From assembly GCF_012940005.1 (NCBI RefSeq), contig NZ_SPMX01000018.1:62001-126000 (forward strand): a stretch of 64,000 bases of DNA, read 5' to 3'. The notes beneath the pieces were generated by a model that saw only the letters and a list, made by a program, of their open reading frames with translations, was not told where the DNA came from and did no database searches. Every line of letters begins with the position of its first letter. Position 1 is the stretch's first letter. Made by a program: the position numbers and the translations under genes. The stretch comes from Candidatus Accumulibacter contiguus (GTDB lineage: Bacteria > Pseudomonadota > Gammaproteobacteria > Burkholderiales > Rhodocyclaceae). Of this stretch, positions 16,714 through 20,197 are shown piece by piece.

Positions 16714-17025
16714 TCAACCGGGCAGGCGCGTATAGCGCTGCTCGACTTCCGCTACGGCCGCCTGTGCCTGGCGCAAGCCGTACGAAAACTGCACCGCGAT
16801 CTGCACCGGCTCTGGCCCCAGCCGCCAGCGCTTGGCCGGGTCCTGCACCGCCCAGCCCTTGTGCGCCATCGTCTGCAGGTCACGGTGCACCATCGGTTCG
16901 GCCGTACCGACGGCCTTGGCGATGTCCGCCAGACGCAGGCCAAAGACCTCATGGCCCGCGAGTGCGCGGATCACATCCATCAGCCGCAGTTGCGCGGCGT
17001 TGTGCAAGGCGTGAGGATCGCTCAT
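16714..17025 (-). CDS. winged-helix (IclR-type HTH) early regulator
   Basis: A 103-residue protein starting MSDPHALHNAAQLRLMDVIR. The stretch LRLADIAKAVGTAEPMVHRD with QTMAHKGWAVQDPAKRWRLG is an IclR-style helix-turn-helix followed by a wing, with no effector domain. It probably regulates early phage transcription. It overlaps the next small gene by 4 bases. Confidence 0.75.
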   Translation of the reverse strand: MSDPHALHNAAQLRLMDVIRALAGHEVFGLRLADIAKAVGTAEPMVHRDLQTMAHKGWAVQDPAKRWRLGPEPVQIAVQFSYGLRQAQAAVAEVEQRYTRLPG

Positions 17026-17168
17026 GCCCACACCCACTTGCGCAACGCCGAGACCGTCGTCGCCGACCACGATTTGGAATAGAGCCAGCCGCCGGTGCGG
17101 CTCGCCTCGACGACGAGCTGGTGGCGCAGCGCGAGGCGTAGCCGGCAGAGCGAGATATGGTTCTTCAT
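17022..17168 (-). CDS. short basic phage protein
   Basis: A 48-residue protein starting MKNHISLCRLRLALRHQLVV and ending SATTVSALRKWVWA. It is coupled by ATGA overlaps to the upstream ner-like gene and the downstream regulator. The ribosome site is the AGGAGG embedded in the last codons of the ner-like gene. Function is unknown. Confidence 0.55.
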   Translation of the reverse strand: MKNHISLCRLRLALRHQLVVEASRTGGWLYSKSWSATTVSALRKWVWA

Positions 17169-17392
17169 GCGACCTCCTGGGGAGCGCATTCCAGCGCCGG
17201 GTATTTGCCCGGCCACAGCGTCTCCAGCGGCAGGCTGGTGGCGGTACTGATCGCCGTGGCAATGCGCCGGCTGGTCGTGCGCCCGGCCACCACGTAACTG
17301 ACGGTCACGTTCGAGACCTGGCATTGCCGGGCGATGTCGGCCTGCGAGGTGCGCGCCTTCTTGAGGGCACACTGGATATCAGCGGAATTCAT
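17165..17392 (-). CDS. Ner/Nlp-family transcription regulator (second copy)
   Basis: A 75-residue helix-turn-helix protein starting MNSADIQCALKKARTSQADI. The HTH is TSQADIARQCQVSNVTVSYV and the C-terminal LWPGKYPALE is the Ner/SfsB signature (W-P-x-K/R-Y). It is clearly related to the copy at 18913-19164. Mu Ner represses the early and repressor promoters. The end of the gene carries the AGGAGG and ATG of the next gene. It is divergent from the zinc-ribbon gene at 17445, and their shared upstream region resembles that of the other ner/repressor pair. Confidence 0.85.
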   Translation of the reverse strand: MNSADIQCALKKARTSQADIARQCQVSNVTVSYVVAGRTTSRRIATAISTATSLPLETLWPGKYPALECAPQEVA

Positions 17393-17420
17393 TTCGATTT
17401 GCTATCCTGTAAGTTCGGCT

Positions 17421-17435
17421 AACGAATAAGGCGAA
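17421..17435. promoter_or_regulatory. operator-like sequence shared with the repressor/ner region
   Basis: AACGAATAAGGCGAA here matches AACCAATGAGGCGAA at 19209-19223 in 13 of 15 positions. Both lie upstream of a ner-like gene and a divergent gene, and each is preceded by a TCGATTT about 14-22 bases before. This suggests a duplicated regulator binding site. Confidence 0.4.
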
Positions 17436-17444
17436 AGGGAAAAG

Positions 17445-17981
17445 TTGATCAGCGAACTAACGGCCGCCTATCAGGCGACGAAAGCGGGCATAGAGTTGCT
17501 TCGCAATGCCCTGGGAGCCAAGGTCGACCACGACGTCGACGTCGCGCTGTTGGGCGTCAATGACCATCTGTTGCGCTTGCAGGCGATTGCGCTCGGCCTC
17601 CAGGGCGAGGTAGCGCGACTGAACCAGGCCAGCATTGAGGCAGCGCAACGCGAAAGCGCGCTCAAAGAAGTAGTTGCTCAGTTGCAAAAATTTGACGCCG
17701 ACCAGCCTGCCTACACCCTTCAACAGGTCGGGCCAGGAGCATTCGCATACCGCTACCAGGATCCAGTGGCTAACGGCGGAGCACAGTCTCCACAAAGCGA
17801 CGCTTGGTTTTGCCCCCAGTGTTTCGATCAACGCCGGAAGTCGATTCTGCAATACGCCGGGTACGAAGCGAGAGACCGCGTTTTCAAATGCCCCACGTGT
17901 GGCAGTGCCATCCGCGTGAAAGGGGAAGACGCTGAGGTCCGTGTGGCTTTCCCGAGTAGGGGCAGTCGACGCCTGCTCTGA
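17445..17981 (+). CDS. coiled-coil protein with C-terminal zinc ribbon
   Basis: A 178-residue protein with a TTG start preceded by an AAGGGAAAAG ribosome site. Residues 1-85 are helical (VNDHLLRLQAIALGLQGEVA). The C-terminal part has FCPQCFDQRRKSILQYAGYE and FKCPTCGSAIRV, a CxxC pair typical of a zinc-ribbon family found in many prophages and genomic islands. It is on the strand opposite the early operon and divergent from the ner-like gene. The start of a repeat lies 24 bases after its stop. The exact role is unknown. Confidence 0.78.
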   Translation: MISELTAAYQATKAGIELLRNALGAKVDHDVDVALLGVNDHLLRLQAIALGLQGEVARLNQASIEAAQRESALKEVVAQLQKFDADQPAYTLQQVGPGAFAYRYQDPVANGGAQSPQSDAWFCPQCFDQRRKSILQYAGYEARDRVFKCPTCGSAIRVKGEDAEVRVAFPSRGSRRLL

Positions 17982-18004
17982 TTTTGATGAATCTATGGGG
18001 GATG

Positions 18005-18027
18005 TCATGCGGCCTCCTGGAAGGGGG
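18005..18027. repeat. 23-bp ner-tail repeat, copy 1
   Basis: TCATGCGGCCTCCTGG plus AAGGGGG. Read on the minus strand it encodes the last residues PFQEAA and stop of a ner gene, with AGGAGG and an overlapping ATG. It lies between two plus-strand genes. Copies are at 18343-18365 and 18913-18934, and a degenerate one at 17165-17180. Confidence 0.8.
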
Positions 18028-18060
18028 GGGGATTGGGAAACAAAATGGATAGGGACCATC

Positions 18061-18273
18061 ATGGAAAACGACTTCACGGCCGCCGACGAGAAATGCCTGG
18101 CTCTGACCTACGCACTGACTGCGCTGGTCAAGACCTTGGTCGATTCGGAAGTAGTCGATCGCGACCATCTGTTCAGCAATCTGGCCGGTGCCCAAAGGCA
18201 ACTCGAAGCGATTGGAGAAACTGGCGCAGCCAGCTTGCTGGGCCACTGGAACGAGTCTTTGCTCGGGATCTGA
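18061..18273 (+). CDS. small helical protein in the ner-flanked island
   Basis: A 70-residue protein starting MENDFTAADEKCLALTYALT. It is a two-helix design (ALTALVKTLVDSEVVDRDHL and AQRQLEAIGETGAASLLGHW) of a kind common in phages and islands. ATG 18061 has an AGGGA site 7 bases upstream. It is flanked on both sides by copies of the 23-bp repeat. Function is unknown. Confidence 0.6.
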   Translation: MENDFTAADEKCLALTYALTALVKTLVDSEVVDRDHLFSNLAGAQRQLEAIGETGAASLLGHWNESLLGI

Positions 18274-18346
18274 CGGACCATCCCTTCGGCAGGTCGAAGG
18301 TCTTCCAGAAGTCTTTCGGCTTGGGTTGGGGACTGGATGCGCTCAT
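18173..18346 (-). CDS. possible leftward ORF starting in repeat copy 2 (doubtful)
   Basis: A 57-residue reading frame beginning MSASSPQPKPKDFWKTFDLP directly after the AGGAGG of repeat copy 2. The first 25 codons end mostly in G or C, then the bias fades where it crosses the plus-strand gene at 18061-18273. It may be the 5' stub of an early-operon gene cut by the inserted cassette. Low confidence as an expressed gene. Confidence 0.25.
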   Translation of the reverse strand: MSASSPQPKPKDFWKTFDLPKGWSVRSRAKTRSSGPASWLRQFLQSLRVAFGHRPDC

Positions 18347-18365
18347 GCGGCCTCCTGGAAGGGGG
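18343..18365. repeat. 23-bp ner-tail repeat, copy 2
   Basis: Identical over 23 bases to copy 1 at 18005-18027. It lies 69 bases after the stop of the 18061 gene and 35 bases before the ATG at 18401. On the minus strand it again spells PFQEAA-stop with an embedded AGGAGG and overlapping ATG. Confidence 0.8.
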
Positions 18366-18400
18366 GGTTTGGAAATTTGTGATGAAAGGGCAGGCACCGC

Positions 18401-18886
18401 ATGCAAGTCGTCCTAACGACCGATGAACTGGCTTTCGACGTTCAGACGGATACGGATCTCGAAAACGGGAACCTCATTTTTTCCGAGGGGCCCGACCGGG
18501 CTTACCTGTACTTGTGCGCCGCCGCTGCCGCCGCCGGCGGCGATCCCGCCAAGACCCTCGGCGGCGTGTTGCTCGCCTTGTGGCGGGTCGATAGCATCGA
18601 GGCTTCCCAGGTGCTGGCCGCTGGTCTCGGCGCCCCGCTGCCCAGCGTCGCAGAAACCCTTCCCTTTGAAGTCAACTGGATTCGTGGCGGCGTGCTGGCG
18701 CTCAAGCGCAAGCGCATCGGCGCCGATGCCGCCATGTGGTTGCTCCACTGCCTCGCCGCAGAGAATGTACTTCAGTACACCGCGCATCTCTTCGGGGGGC
18801 ATGCGGTCGAGGGCGAGGGCGTAGCTCGTCGAGCGCTTGAGCTGGATGAATCCGAGCTTGGCCGGGGTGCTGATCAGCCGGACTGA
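18401..18886 (+). CDS. hypothetical protein of the ner-flanked island
   Basis: A 161-residue frame. From about residue 28 to 120 the codons have clearly GC-rich third positions and the protein looks folded (DRAYLYLCAAAAAAGGDPAK, then RKRIGADAAMWLLHCLAAEN). Beyond residue 125 the bias is lost and the opposite strand looks more coding, so the true C terminus is unclear. It lies between repeat copies 2 and 3. No family recognised. Confidence 0.45.
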   Translation: MQVVLTTDELAFDVQTDTDLENGNLIFSEGPDRAYLYLCAAAAAAGGDPAKTLGGVLLALWRVDSIEASQVLAAGLGAPLPSVAETLPFEVNWIRGGVLALKRKRIGADAAMWLLHCLAAENVLQYTAHLFGGHAVEGEGVARRALELDESELGRGADQPD

Positions 18887-18916
18887 GGGAAAAATCATCA
18901 TGGTAGGGAAATTCAT
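18413..18916 (-). CDS. possible early-operon protein downstream of ner, antisense to the 18401 frame
   Basis: A 167-residue frame whose ATG overlaps the ner stop and uses the AGGAGG inside repeat copy 3. The first 45 residues (MIFPSVRLISTPAKLGFIQL and so on) have strongly GC-rich third positions, so this end looks genuinely coding. After about 18770 the plus strand looks better. It may be a real gene start whose body was replaced, or a full gene overlapping an antisense one. Function is unknown. Confidence 0.4.
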   Translation of the reverse strand: MNFPTMMIFPSVRLISTPAKLGFIQLKRSTSYALALDRMPPEEMRGVLKYILCGEAVEQPHGGIGADALALERQHAATNPVDFKGKGFCDAGQRGAETSGQHLGSLDAIDPPQGEQHAAEGLGGIAAGGGSGGAQVQVSPVGPLGKNEVPVFEIRIRLNVESQFIGR

Positions 18917-18934
18917 GCGGCCTCCTGGAAGGGG
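18913..18934. repeat. ner-tail repeat, copy 3 (parent position)
   Basis: Twenty-two bases identical to copies 1 and 2, located in the real 3' end of the ner gene. Here the sequence has a coding function, which makes it the likely source of the other copies. Confidence 0.75.
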
Positions 18935-19164
18935 TTGGTTTGAAAGCGGATGGGATCGAGCCGAAGCTCGGGGTAACGGCCGGGCCAGGTCAGGGCCGGG
19001 TCCAGGCCGGTGAGTTCGCAGATGCGGCGGGCGATGCGGAGGGAGCGAAACCTTCCGCGGATTACACAAGACACCGCTTGATGGCTGACGCCCAGTTCGC
19101 GCGCTAGACAACTGGCGGTGGTGCCAGTCTTACGGAGCGTCGATTTGATGTCTTCTGGGTGCAA
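18913..19164 (-). CDS. ner: Ner-like early regulator
   Basis: An 83-residue helix-turn-helix protein with a TTG start. The HTH is TTASCLARELGVSHQAVSCV and the family signature LTWPGRYPELRLDP follows. It is divergent from the repressor gene at 19271, the same arrangement as ner and c in Mu, and it is the first gene of the leftward early operon. It would shut down early and repressor transcription. It aligns along most of its length with the second copy at 17165-17392. Confidence 0.87.
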   Translation of the reverse strand: MHPEDIKSTLRKTGTTASCLARELGVSHQAVSCVIRGRFRSLRIARRICELTGLDPALTWPGRYPELRLDPIRFQTNPFQEAA

Positions 19165-19270
19165 GGTCTGAAGGCTCCAACGGTCGATTTATGTTGCGTG
19201 TGCAAGCGAACCAATGAGGCGAATTATGAGGAACGAACGTACCCCTTGTCAAGCACAATGAGGAACAAAT
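19165..19270. promoter_or_regulatory. ner/repressor intergenic operator region
   Basis: Three direct repeats of the type ATGAGGnnnAA occur at about 19214-19223, 19226-19237 and 19258-19269; the last lies immediately before the repressor ATG. This spacing and position suggest repressor and/or Ner operators over two divergent promoters. No strong -10/-35 pair was assigned. Confidence 0.5.
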
Positions 19271-19618
19271 ATGTCTTCTATCGGGAATCGTTTGCGTGAA
19301 GAGCGTGAGCGGCTTGGCATGAGCCAGCCGGCCATGGCAGCGGTATGCGGAGTAACCATGCGGTCGCAGCGCAATTATGAAAAGGACGAACGTCTGCCAG
19401 ACGCGAGCTATCTAGCTTCAGCGACGAAGGTCAACGTGGACGTCCTCTTTGTACTGACCGGCCAGCGATCCCCCGGCGTGCCATCCCTCACCCCCGAAGA
19501 ATCCGCGCTCCTCGACAACTTCCGCCATTCCCCGCCGGCGGCGCGGCAAGCCCTCAAGACGACGAGCGATCTCTTCGCGAAACACGACTGCCCCGGCGGC
19601 ATCGCCGAAAGCGCATGA
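19271..19618 (+). CDS. XRE-family phage repressor
   Basis: A 115-residue protein with an N-terminal XRE helix-turn-helix (RLREERERLGMSQPAMAAVC, then VTMRSQRNYEKDERLPDASY) and a short C-terminal part. Its place divergent to ner suggests the lysogeny repressor, though it is unlike Mu c and more like short cro/C1-type regulators. An ATGAGGAACAAA operator-like repeat abuts the start codon, pointing to autoregulation. Confidence 0.8.
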   Translation: MSSIGNRLREERERLGMSQPAMAAVCGVTMRSQRNYEKDERLPDASYLASATKVNVDVLFVLTGQRSPGVPSLTPEESALLDNFRHSPPAARQALKTTSDLFAKHDCPGGIAESA

Positions 19619-19648: not shown

Positions 19649-19738
19649 ATGATCCTGGTGGCCGCTTGGCTCCTCTCGGCGGAACGGGTCAGTGCCGAAA
19701 CGCTTGCTGGCAAGGTCATTGGCGTGACCGACGCCAAT
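19649..19738 (+). pseudogene. remnant of a secreted thermonuclease (SNase) gene start
   Basis: About thirty codons read as MILVAAWLLSAERVSAETLA followed by GKVIGVTDAN. That is a signal peptide plus the opening of an SNase/thermonuclease domain, which normally continues D-G-D-T. The catalytic part is absent; the frame runs on into unrelated codons before the DUF2513 start. It looks like a truncated leftover. Confidence 0.4.
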
Positions 19739-19828
19739 GTATGCCCCCGCCGGGAAATGCCGTTTATAAACGCACCGCGCCCCTTTGCCGGGCAGGTTTT
19801 TGCCTATCTCACAGGGTTAGGAGATTCG

Positions 19829-20197
19829 ATGCACCGCGACATGGATATCATCCGAAAAATAGTGCTCGCCGTTCGTGATGCACAGGCGGAGTACGTCAAT
19901 TCCGTTGAGGGCCTTCCCCAGGAGGATTTCGCATTCCACGCACAACTGCTCGAAGAGGCTGGCCTGGTCGCAGCGGCGATACAGGGCGAGGGAAAGCGCA
20001 TCGCTCGGGTTGCCGTCATTTACCGTCTCACTTGGGCGGGGCAGGATTTTGCAGACTCCATCAGGGATGACACCCTCTGGAGTAAAGCAAAGAAAACTAT
20101 CCTCAAGCCCTCCGCGTCATGGACGTTCGGTATCTTGCTCGAGTATCTGAAGTTCGAGATCAAGCGAACCGTTCCGGGACTCGATCAGATCCCGTAA
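19829..20197 (+). CDS. DUF2513 protein
   Basis: A 122-residue protein starting MHRDMDIIRKIVLAVRDAQA, the hallmark opening of DUF2513 (M-x-R-D-M-D-L-I-R-x-I-L), followed by a winged-helix-like body (FHAQLLEEAGLVAAAI, YRLTWAGQDFADSIRDDTLW). A TTAGGAG site precedes the ATG at 19829, so upstream extensions are excluded. DUF2513 proteins are small accessory genes in phages and islands. It is rightward, just after the repressor, and may be expressed in the lysogen. Confidence 0.85.
   Translation: MHRDMDIIRKIVLAVRDAQAEYVNSVEGLPQEDFAFHAQLLEEAGLVAAAIQGEGKRIARVAVIYRLTWAGQDFADSIRDDTLWSKAKKTILKPSASWTFGILLEYLKFEIKRTVPGLDQIP

Follow-up and report, generated by a model that had tools for sequence, protein, structure and literature searches.

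How can a transposable phage take up small genes that face against its early operon while the operon keeps its start signals? The question is raised by an island at positions 17165-19164 of a 64,000-nucleotide stretch of Candidatus Accumulibacter contiguus DNA (assembly GCF_012940005.1, contig NZ_SPMX01000018.1, positions 62,001 to 126,000), referred to below as the window, in which two ner-like genes of a B3-like transposable prophage enclose three genes carried by the opposite strand. A short repeat, which we call the seam, recurs between these genes; read leftward, it is the 3' end of ner joined to the Shine-Dalgarno (SD) sequence and the ATG of the next early gene. The reading we favour, with a probability of about 60%, is that the island is an accessory locus beside ner made of antisense cassettes bordered by seams, which would be gained and lost by recombination and would protect the lysogen. 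As judged from sequence comparison, related prophages differ in the number, kind and position of their cassettes, and an extra seam is present in most of the loci that have two or more.

The repeat, TCATGCGGCCTCCTGGAAGGGG, is present in three exact copies, all read on the minus strand: one at the 3' end of the first ner-like gene (18913..18934) and two in intergenic positions (18343..18367 and 18005..18029). The intergenic copies are identical to each other over 25 bp and to the first over 22 bp, and a degenerate copy (17165..17180) ends the second ner-like gene. A sequence-only reading of this DNA had described these four sites, the copy that matches at 22 of 22 bases included, and they stand as described. 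It had also taken the outer two for the ends of ner-like genes, which profile matches bear out: ner1 (18913..19164, minus strand, 83 residues), which opens the leftward early operon, matches HTH_35 (E 6.9e-11) and phrog_769 (E 1.7e-12), and ner2 (17165..17392, minus strand, 75 residues) matches the same families (E 3.8e-7 and 1e-9); both genes are conserved in the relatives. On the minus strand the seam spells PFQEAA-stop, AGGAGG and an ATG overlapping the ner stop, as had been read. The ATG lies inside the repeat with a consensus SD at good spacing in each copy, so that every copy keeps, as claimed, a start signal for the leftward operon. The plus-strand genes stop 23, 69 and 26 bases short of a seam copy; the closeness proposed earlier holds, and its lower figure of 24 bases does not. 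On the ATG side the edge of the repeat is sharp: identity ceases at ATGA, with 0 further matching bases.

The repeat is real. A minus-strand 20-mer of the seam has three exact matches in the window against none in 100 shuffles, every same-strand 20-mer present there in at least three copies comes from the seam repeat, and the exact 16-mer core is unique to these three sites within the host assembly (5.02 Mb, 167 contigs). The degenerate copy has one mismatch in the 16-bp core; since the four core matches found with up to three mismatches (1.34 expected) are also attained in 3 of 100 shuffles, this copy is weaker evidence taken alone.

The window was compared with seven related loci (L027, L028, L029, L030, L031, L032 and L034; the entries L024, L025 and L026 are the contigs of L027, L030 and L029, and the coordinates of L033 are those of L030). 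Between ner1 and ner2 these eight loci carry from zero to three opposite-strand genes. From ner1 to ner2, the window has genes for 161 residues, 70 residues and a phrog_1244 protein, with two seam copies away from the ner ends. One extra copy accompanies each of three pairs: phrog_1244 and 160 residues in L028 (where a further look-alike with 3 mismatches was left out of the count), 81 and 160 residues in L029, and 101 residues and an MGRF-type protein in L034. There is no extra copy in L032 (88 residues and an MGRF-type protein of 73), in L027 and L030 (MGRF only, the L027 frame continuing beyond the usual end) or in L031, which is empty. Of the 5 loci that have two or more opposite genes, 4 thus carry extra copies, against none of the 3 others, in agreement with the earlier proposal that duplicates of the junction accompany accessory genes. 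The phrog_1244 gene itself shifts, from beside ner2 in the window to beside ner1 in L028. Gene number, kind and order therefore vary between relatives, as a comparison of strains had been expected to reveal, and neither a general absence of the repeat nor a fixed gene order without it, either of which would have spoken against the proposal, was found among the relatives compared. On the leftward strand, a protein of 65/83 residues started at the seam is conserved between L026 and L028 (68% over 40 residues), and the L024 gene that starts at the ner1 seam is conserved with one in L025 (48% of 126 codons).

The joins themselves were read from local alignments, which are no formal breakpoint test. 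Between L030 and L032, matches of 96% and 94% lie on either side of a single cassette, about 280 bp long and absent from one of the two, and overlap by 10 nucleotides at an SD-like sequence. The intergenic seam of L034 equals the ner1 seam of L032 over 23 bp, and the sequences to the right of them are 99% identical. In all 28 locus pairs, the DNA match containing ner1 reaches at most 7 nucleotides beyond the ner1 stop, and in 10 of them it ends within 10 nucleotides of that stop. Seam copies from one phage resemble each other more than copies from different phages do (permutation p 0.015 over 25 nucleotides and 0.0018 over 18, with 12 copies from seven loci, the ner2 ends and L030 being left out). 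As a separate observation, L028 (4212-4244) and L034 (4206-4259) remain similar past the seam, for 32 nucleotides towards the start of the opposite gene, though their opposite genes differ.

How far does the seam extend beyond these phages? A 17-mer seam query of viral contigs returned 48 stretches, most of which are probably chance matches. Profiles of ner and of the IclR-like regulator match only two, L108 and L121, the contigs of L032 and L034, both already in the set, and of the two only L121 has two seam copies; the seam sequence is thus largely specific to this phage clade. It is not common to the more distant ner loci compared. Among 49 ner-like loci, the end of ner recurs downstream (p ≤ 0.05) in seven loci of the clade and in L079; in L027, L031 and L032 the recurrence is the ner2 end only, and the clade locus L030 gives p 0.95. 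Two leftward start signals that agree at 12 or more of 18 bases occur together in 7 of 37 locus rows, which include partial copies of one locus: the window, G024 (ner1 against ner2), G005, L028, L034, and the Pseudomonas phages PM105 and Ps60. Young has such a pair in a second listing, and the maximum on the other strand is 11.

The Pseudomonas phages Young, U11, PM105 and Ps60 show the design with another seam. In phage B3 the next early gene begins directly after ner, at TGAGGAACACCGCCATG. In Young the two genes are separated by an extra gene on the opposite strand, and this gene is flanked on each side by a version of the join. The two versions are alike at 16 of 19 bases; among the 1596 pairs formed by Young's 57 annotated start signals, none is alike at more than 15. 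Both copies recur in U11, and PM105 and Ps60 have similar ones. In this survey, which examined 13 records of 52 matched, a repeated start signal was found in 3 of 10 Pseudomonas loci tested (Young, PM105, Ps60); none was found in the more distant ner loci or in most of the Pseudomonas B3-like loci tested. Gene 10 of phage Fc02 and Young_18 align at 61% over 82 residues with no alignment past that point, and the remainder overlaps differing opposite genes, which suggests that a single exchange replaced both the opposite gene and the end of the early gene.

What are the inserted genes? The 161-residue gene (18401..18886, plus strand) has homologues in the Pseudomonas phages Young, U11 and D14F (tblastn E 9e-13; 40% identity over 134 columns). 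In the Young and U11 records the homologue lies at the corresponding locus, unannotated on its strand (5001-5384 of L150 for Young). The protein had no match in the search of genome contigs, nor the island DNA in the phage collection. The 178-residue gene (17445..17981, plus strand) belongs to phrog_1244 (E 3.7e-26), has cysteine pairs resembling those of a zinc ribbon and shares 63% identity over 172 residues with the L028 copy. The two genes differ at 59, 30 and 81 sites in plus-strand codon positions 1, 2 and 3, and this excess at third positions indicates that the plus strand is the coding one. A phrog_1244 relative, orf25 of D3112 (L151), is also opposed to its neighbours; it lies between orf24 and orf26, away from ner. 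The 70-residue gene (18061..18273, plus strand) is known as an open reading frame (ORF) only: its product matches no family below E 0.1 and no similar small protein significantly by BLASTP. This protein, the 81-residue one and Young_19 were first assumed to be homologues; the assumption was dropped for want of BLASTP support, and a reversal of gene order between the window and Young is therefore not claimed. Two structure models were poor, with mean predicted local distance difference test scores (pLDDT) of 43 and 61.

The prophage around the island is B3-like, its gene order being that of phages B3 and Young. Leftward come ner, an IclR-like regulator (16714..17025, minus strand; HTH_IclR E 6.3e-9, phrog_1368 E 3.2e-22), a phrog_1748 protein where B3 has its DUF3102 gene, a Mu-type transposase A (phrog_310, E 1.3e-76), transposition protein B (phrog_296, E 3.2e-61), a Gam-like protein and a late transcription activator. 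On the other side, a divergent gene at the repressor position (19271..19618, plus strand; HTH_31 E 2.6e-6) lies downstream of the opposite-strand genes, and the major head and tape measure genes are rightward. The likely early promoter is TTGACA-18-CATAAT (19223..19252, minus strand; 11 of 12 consensus bases). The pattern GTTAGCCGAA upstream of ner2 (17414..17423, minus strand) may act as an operator; matches to it lie a short way upstream of ner2 in all 8 loci, and 3 of these loci have one upstream of ner1 as well. An early gene for 48 residues (17022..17168, minus strand) starts at the ner2 seam, and L024 and L026 have similar ORFs. L027, L029 and L031 have a space like that occupied by this gene, and L028, L030, L032 and L034 have next to none between ner2 and the IclR-like gene; on this ground the ner2 join too may gain and lose genes. 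Beyond the repressor position, the ORF at 19649-20197 starts like a nuclease-like ORF of L024 (6692-7303) and then diverges, with a phrog_585 match that begins at residue 61, as if a remnant had been fused to a different gene.

The mechanism that we propose combines these elements. Small genes would be spliced in where ner meets the early gene that follows it, in antisense orientation to the early operon, and the extra seam copy would supply the early mRNA with a fresh start codon at that join. Cassettes would come and go by recombination over short stretches, with seams or other start signals as the sites and strand annealing by the host or the phage as the means, and selection would retain a working start signal on either side of the insert. 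By analogy with Fc02, the plus-strand genes would be transcribed in the lysogen towards the repressor and would protect it, through superinfection exclusion or a similar function; on induction, early leftward transcription would counter them. The wider proposition, in which the ner/next-gene start signal is a general docking seam of transposable phages where antisense, prophage-expressed cassettes are stacked in the lytic operon, each with a seam copy, is put forward tentatively.

That this locus can hold variable accessory genes, and exclusion genes on the opposite strand, is already known. In the Fc02 lysogen, a forward transcript from pC1 extends across olg1 as far as the repressor, running against gene 10 and a part of ner, and olg1 (sie1) and gene 10, on opposite strands, each exclude superinfecting phages (PMC9936078). 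The sequence-only reading had known of no described system of this type in Mu-like phages, a statement that B3-like Fc02, with its opposite-strand and early exclusion genes beside ner, overturns; otherwise that reading was largely right, and its interpretation is partly supported, insertion of one gene after another being no more than a possibility. For the forward ORF of the Fc02 record we compute a mass of 7.96 kDa; the published value is 7.9 kDa (PMC9936078). Like that of Fc02, as far as the accessible text describes it, the window's opposite genes follow ner in the leftward early operon, upstream of the repressor, and overlap an early gene; as in Fc02, ner is separated from the CII/IclR-side genes by a gene on the other strand. 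Because place and orientation are the same, we infer that the plus-strand genes are prophage-expressed accessory genes, perhaps exclusion genes. Fc02 differs in having one opposite-strand exclusion gene, and the accessible text describes no copied seam (PMC9936078).

Conserved junctions between interchangeable small genes have other parallels. In the mobile regulatory cassettes of T4 the junctions are promoter stem-loops, and the lambda nin genes, which are co-oriented, are separated by conserved start/stop junctions; in the window the inserted genes face against the operon. The D3112-like phages, in whose study the lambda nin region is mentioned, also carry small variable genes at fixed sites, in regions of genomic plasticity, for which recombination by Red-like functions was suggested; a seam repeat at ner is not described in the accessible part of that work (PMC4378225). 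The Cluster K mycobacteriophages have 13-bp start-associated sequences, GGGATAGGAGCCC, in 11-19 copies per genome, with AGGAG just before the start codons of non-structural genes (PMC3203893). The seam likewise contains its start codon; as compared with the accessible account, it is another sequence, departing from the GGGATAGGAGCCC consensus, and with three exact copies and one degenerate, tied to the ner junction, it has fewer copies. No description of antisense cassettes stacked with copies of a ner/start-signal seam appeared in the literature searched, which left most subscription papers out of reach, and the same search found no paper on Mu-like phages of Accumulibacter. The stacked cassettes with their copied seam look like a new variation on a known locus.

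Could the repeats be nothing else than a favoured ribosome-binding sequence, kept alike by translational selection, with no role in the gain or loss of genes? The consensus SD and well-spaced ATG of every copy would be explained, and Fc02-type loci differ in gene content without any obvious repeat; an identity of 22-25 bp, however, far exceeds an SD plus an ATG, the seam sequence is in none of the prophage's other listed start signals, the intergenic copy near 18005 is 91% identical to the ner1 end of L027 over 33 nucleotides, and extra copies follow cassette number, so that we hold this explanation unlikely. Translation enters in another way if the seams restart it across antisense RNA, keeping Rho from stopping the early operon, with gene exchange as a side effect. 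The three leftward frames that begin at seams (18413-18916, 18173-18346 and 17457-18008, minus strand, within 17457..18916) are open for 57-183 codons, as this would require, and their coding of proteins is doubtful; no selection for open antisense frames was seen, the openness being what synonymous codon usage predicts in all 8 cases tested of 11 listed (probability of as few stops, 0.39-0.86), and we give this possibility little credit.

The intergenic seams spell a ner tail, and the island is flanked by two ner paralogues with similar tails, as would be the case if they were remnants of further, tandemly duplicated ner genes whose bodies were replaced by accessory genes. Yet the similarity around the copies spans only about 33 nucleotides and a profile search of the window region gave no further ner-like frame, which makes such an origin improbable. 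An integron-like or other site-specific system moving the cassettes as circles would account for the sharp edge at ATGA and for the array of variable genes between repeats. It is very improbable in view of the seam sequence, which varies between phage groups, of the RNA folding at the repeats, which was no better than in shuffles in 9 of 9 stretches (z -0.47 to 1.91; DNA folding parameters were not used), and of the search for recombinases reported next.

Several observations weigh against seam-bordered cassettes gained and lost by recombination. No recombinase family was found among ten island and edge proteins, the prophage having been scanned only in part. L032 is an exception to the rule of the extra seam: it has two opposite genes and only the ner1 seam, its second join being a different SD sequence. 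The right-hand break between L034 and L032 falls within a coding gene, off any seam, and in 18 of the 28 locus pairs the match stops more than 10 nucleotides before the ner1 stop, the ner tails diverging, so that the seam forms no clean edge; seven relatives are, moreover, a small sample. As to expression and protection in the lysogen, a consensus scan revealed no plus-strand sigma-70 promoter. The leftward ORF 18413-18916 has no match to the Fc02-type gene 10 of H71, so that homology to gene 10 was not found, olg1 itself not having been compared; this ORF does match Young_18 weakly (E 2e-4), in a stretch antisense to opposite genes that are themselves homologous.

In conclusion, the cassettes stacked at the ner join offer a concrete and testable answer to how transposable phages acquire small accessory genes with the operon unbroken, a matter on which a 2014 study of D3112-like phages called for detailed analysis of flanks before any speculation on accessory-gene gain (PMC4378225). 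The locus is also a place in which to seek overlooked exclusion or defence genes, such as the unannotated 161-residue homologue of Young and U11. If the docking seam proves true, it would let a phage change its exclusion arsenal while lytic translation stays intact, and lysogenic and lytic functions would occupy the same DNA on opposite strands.

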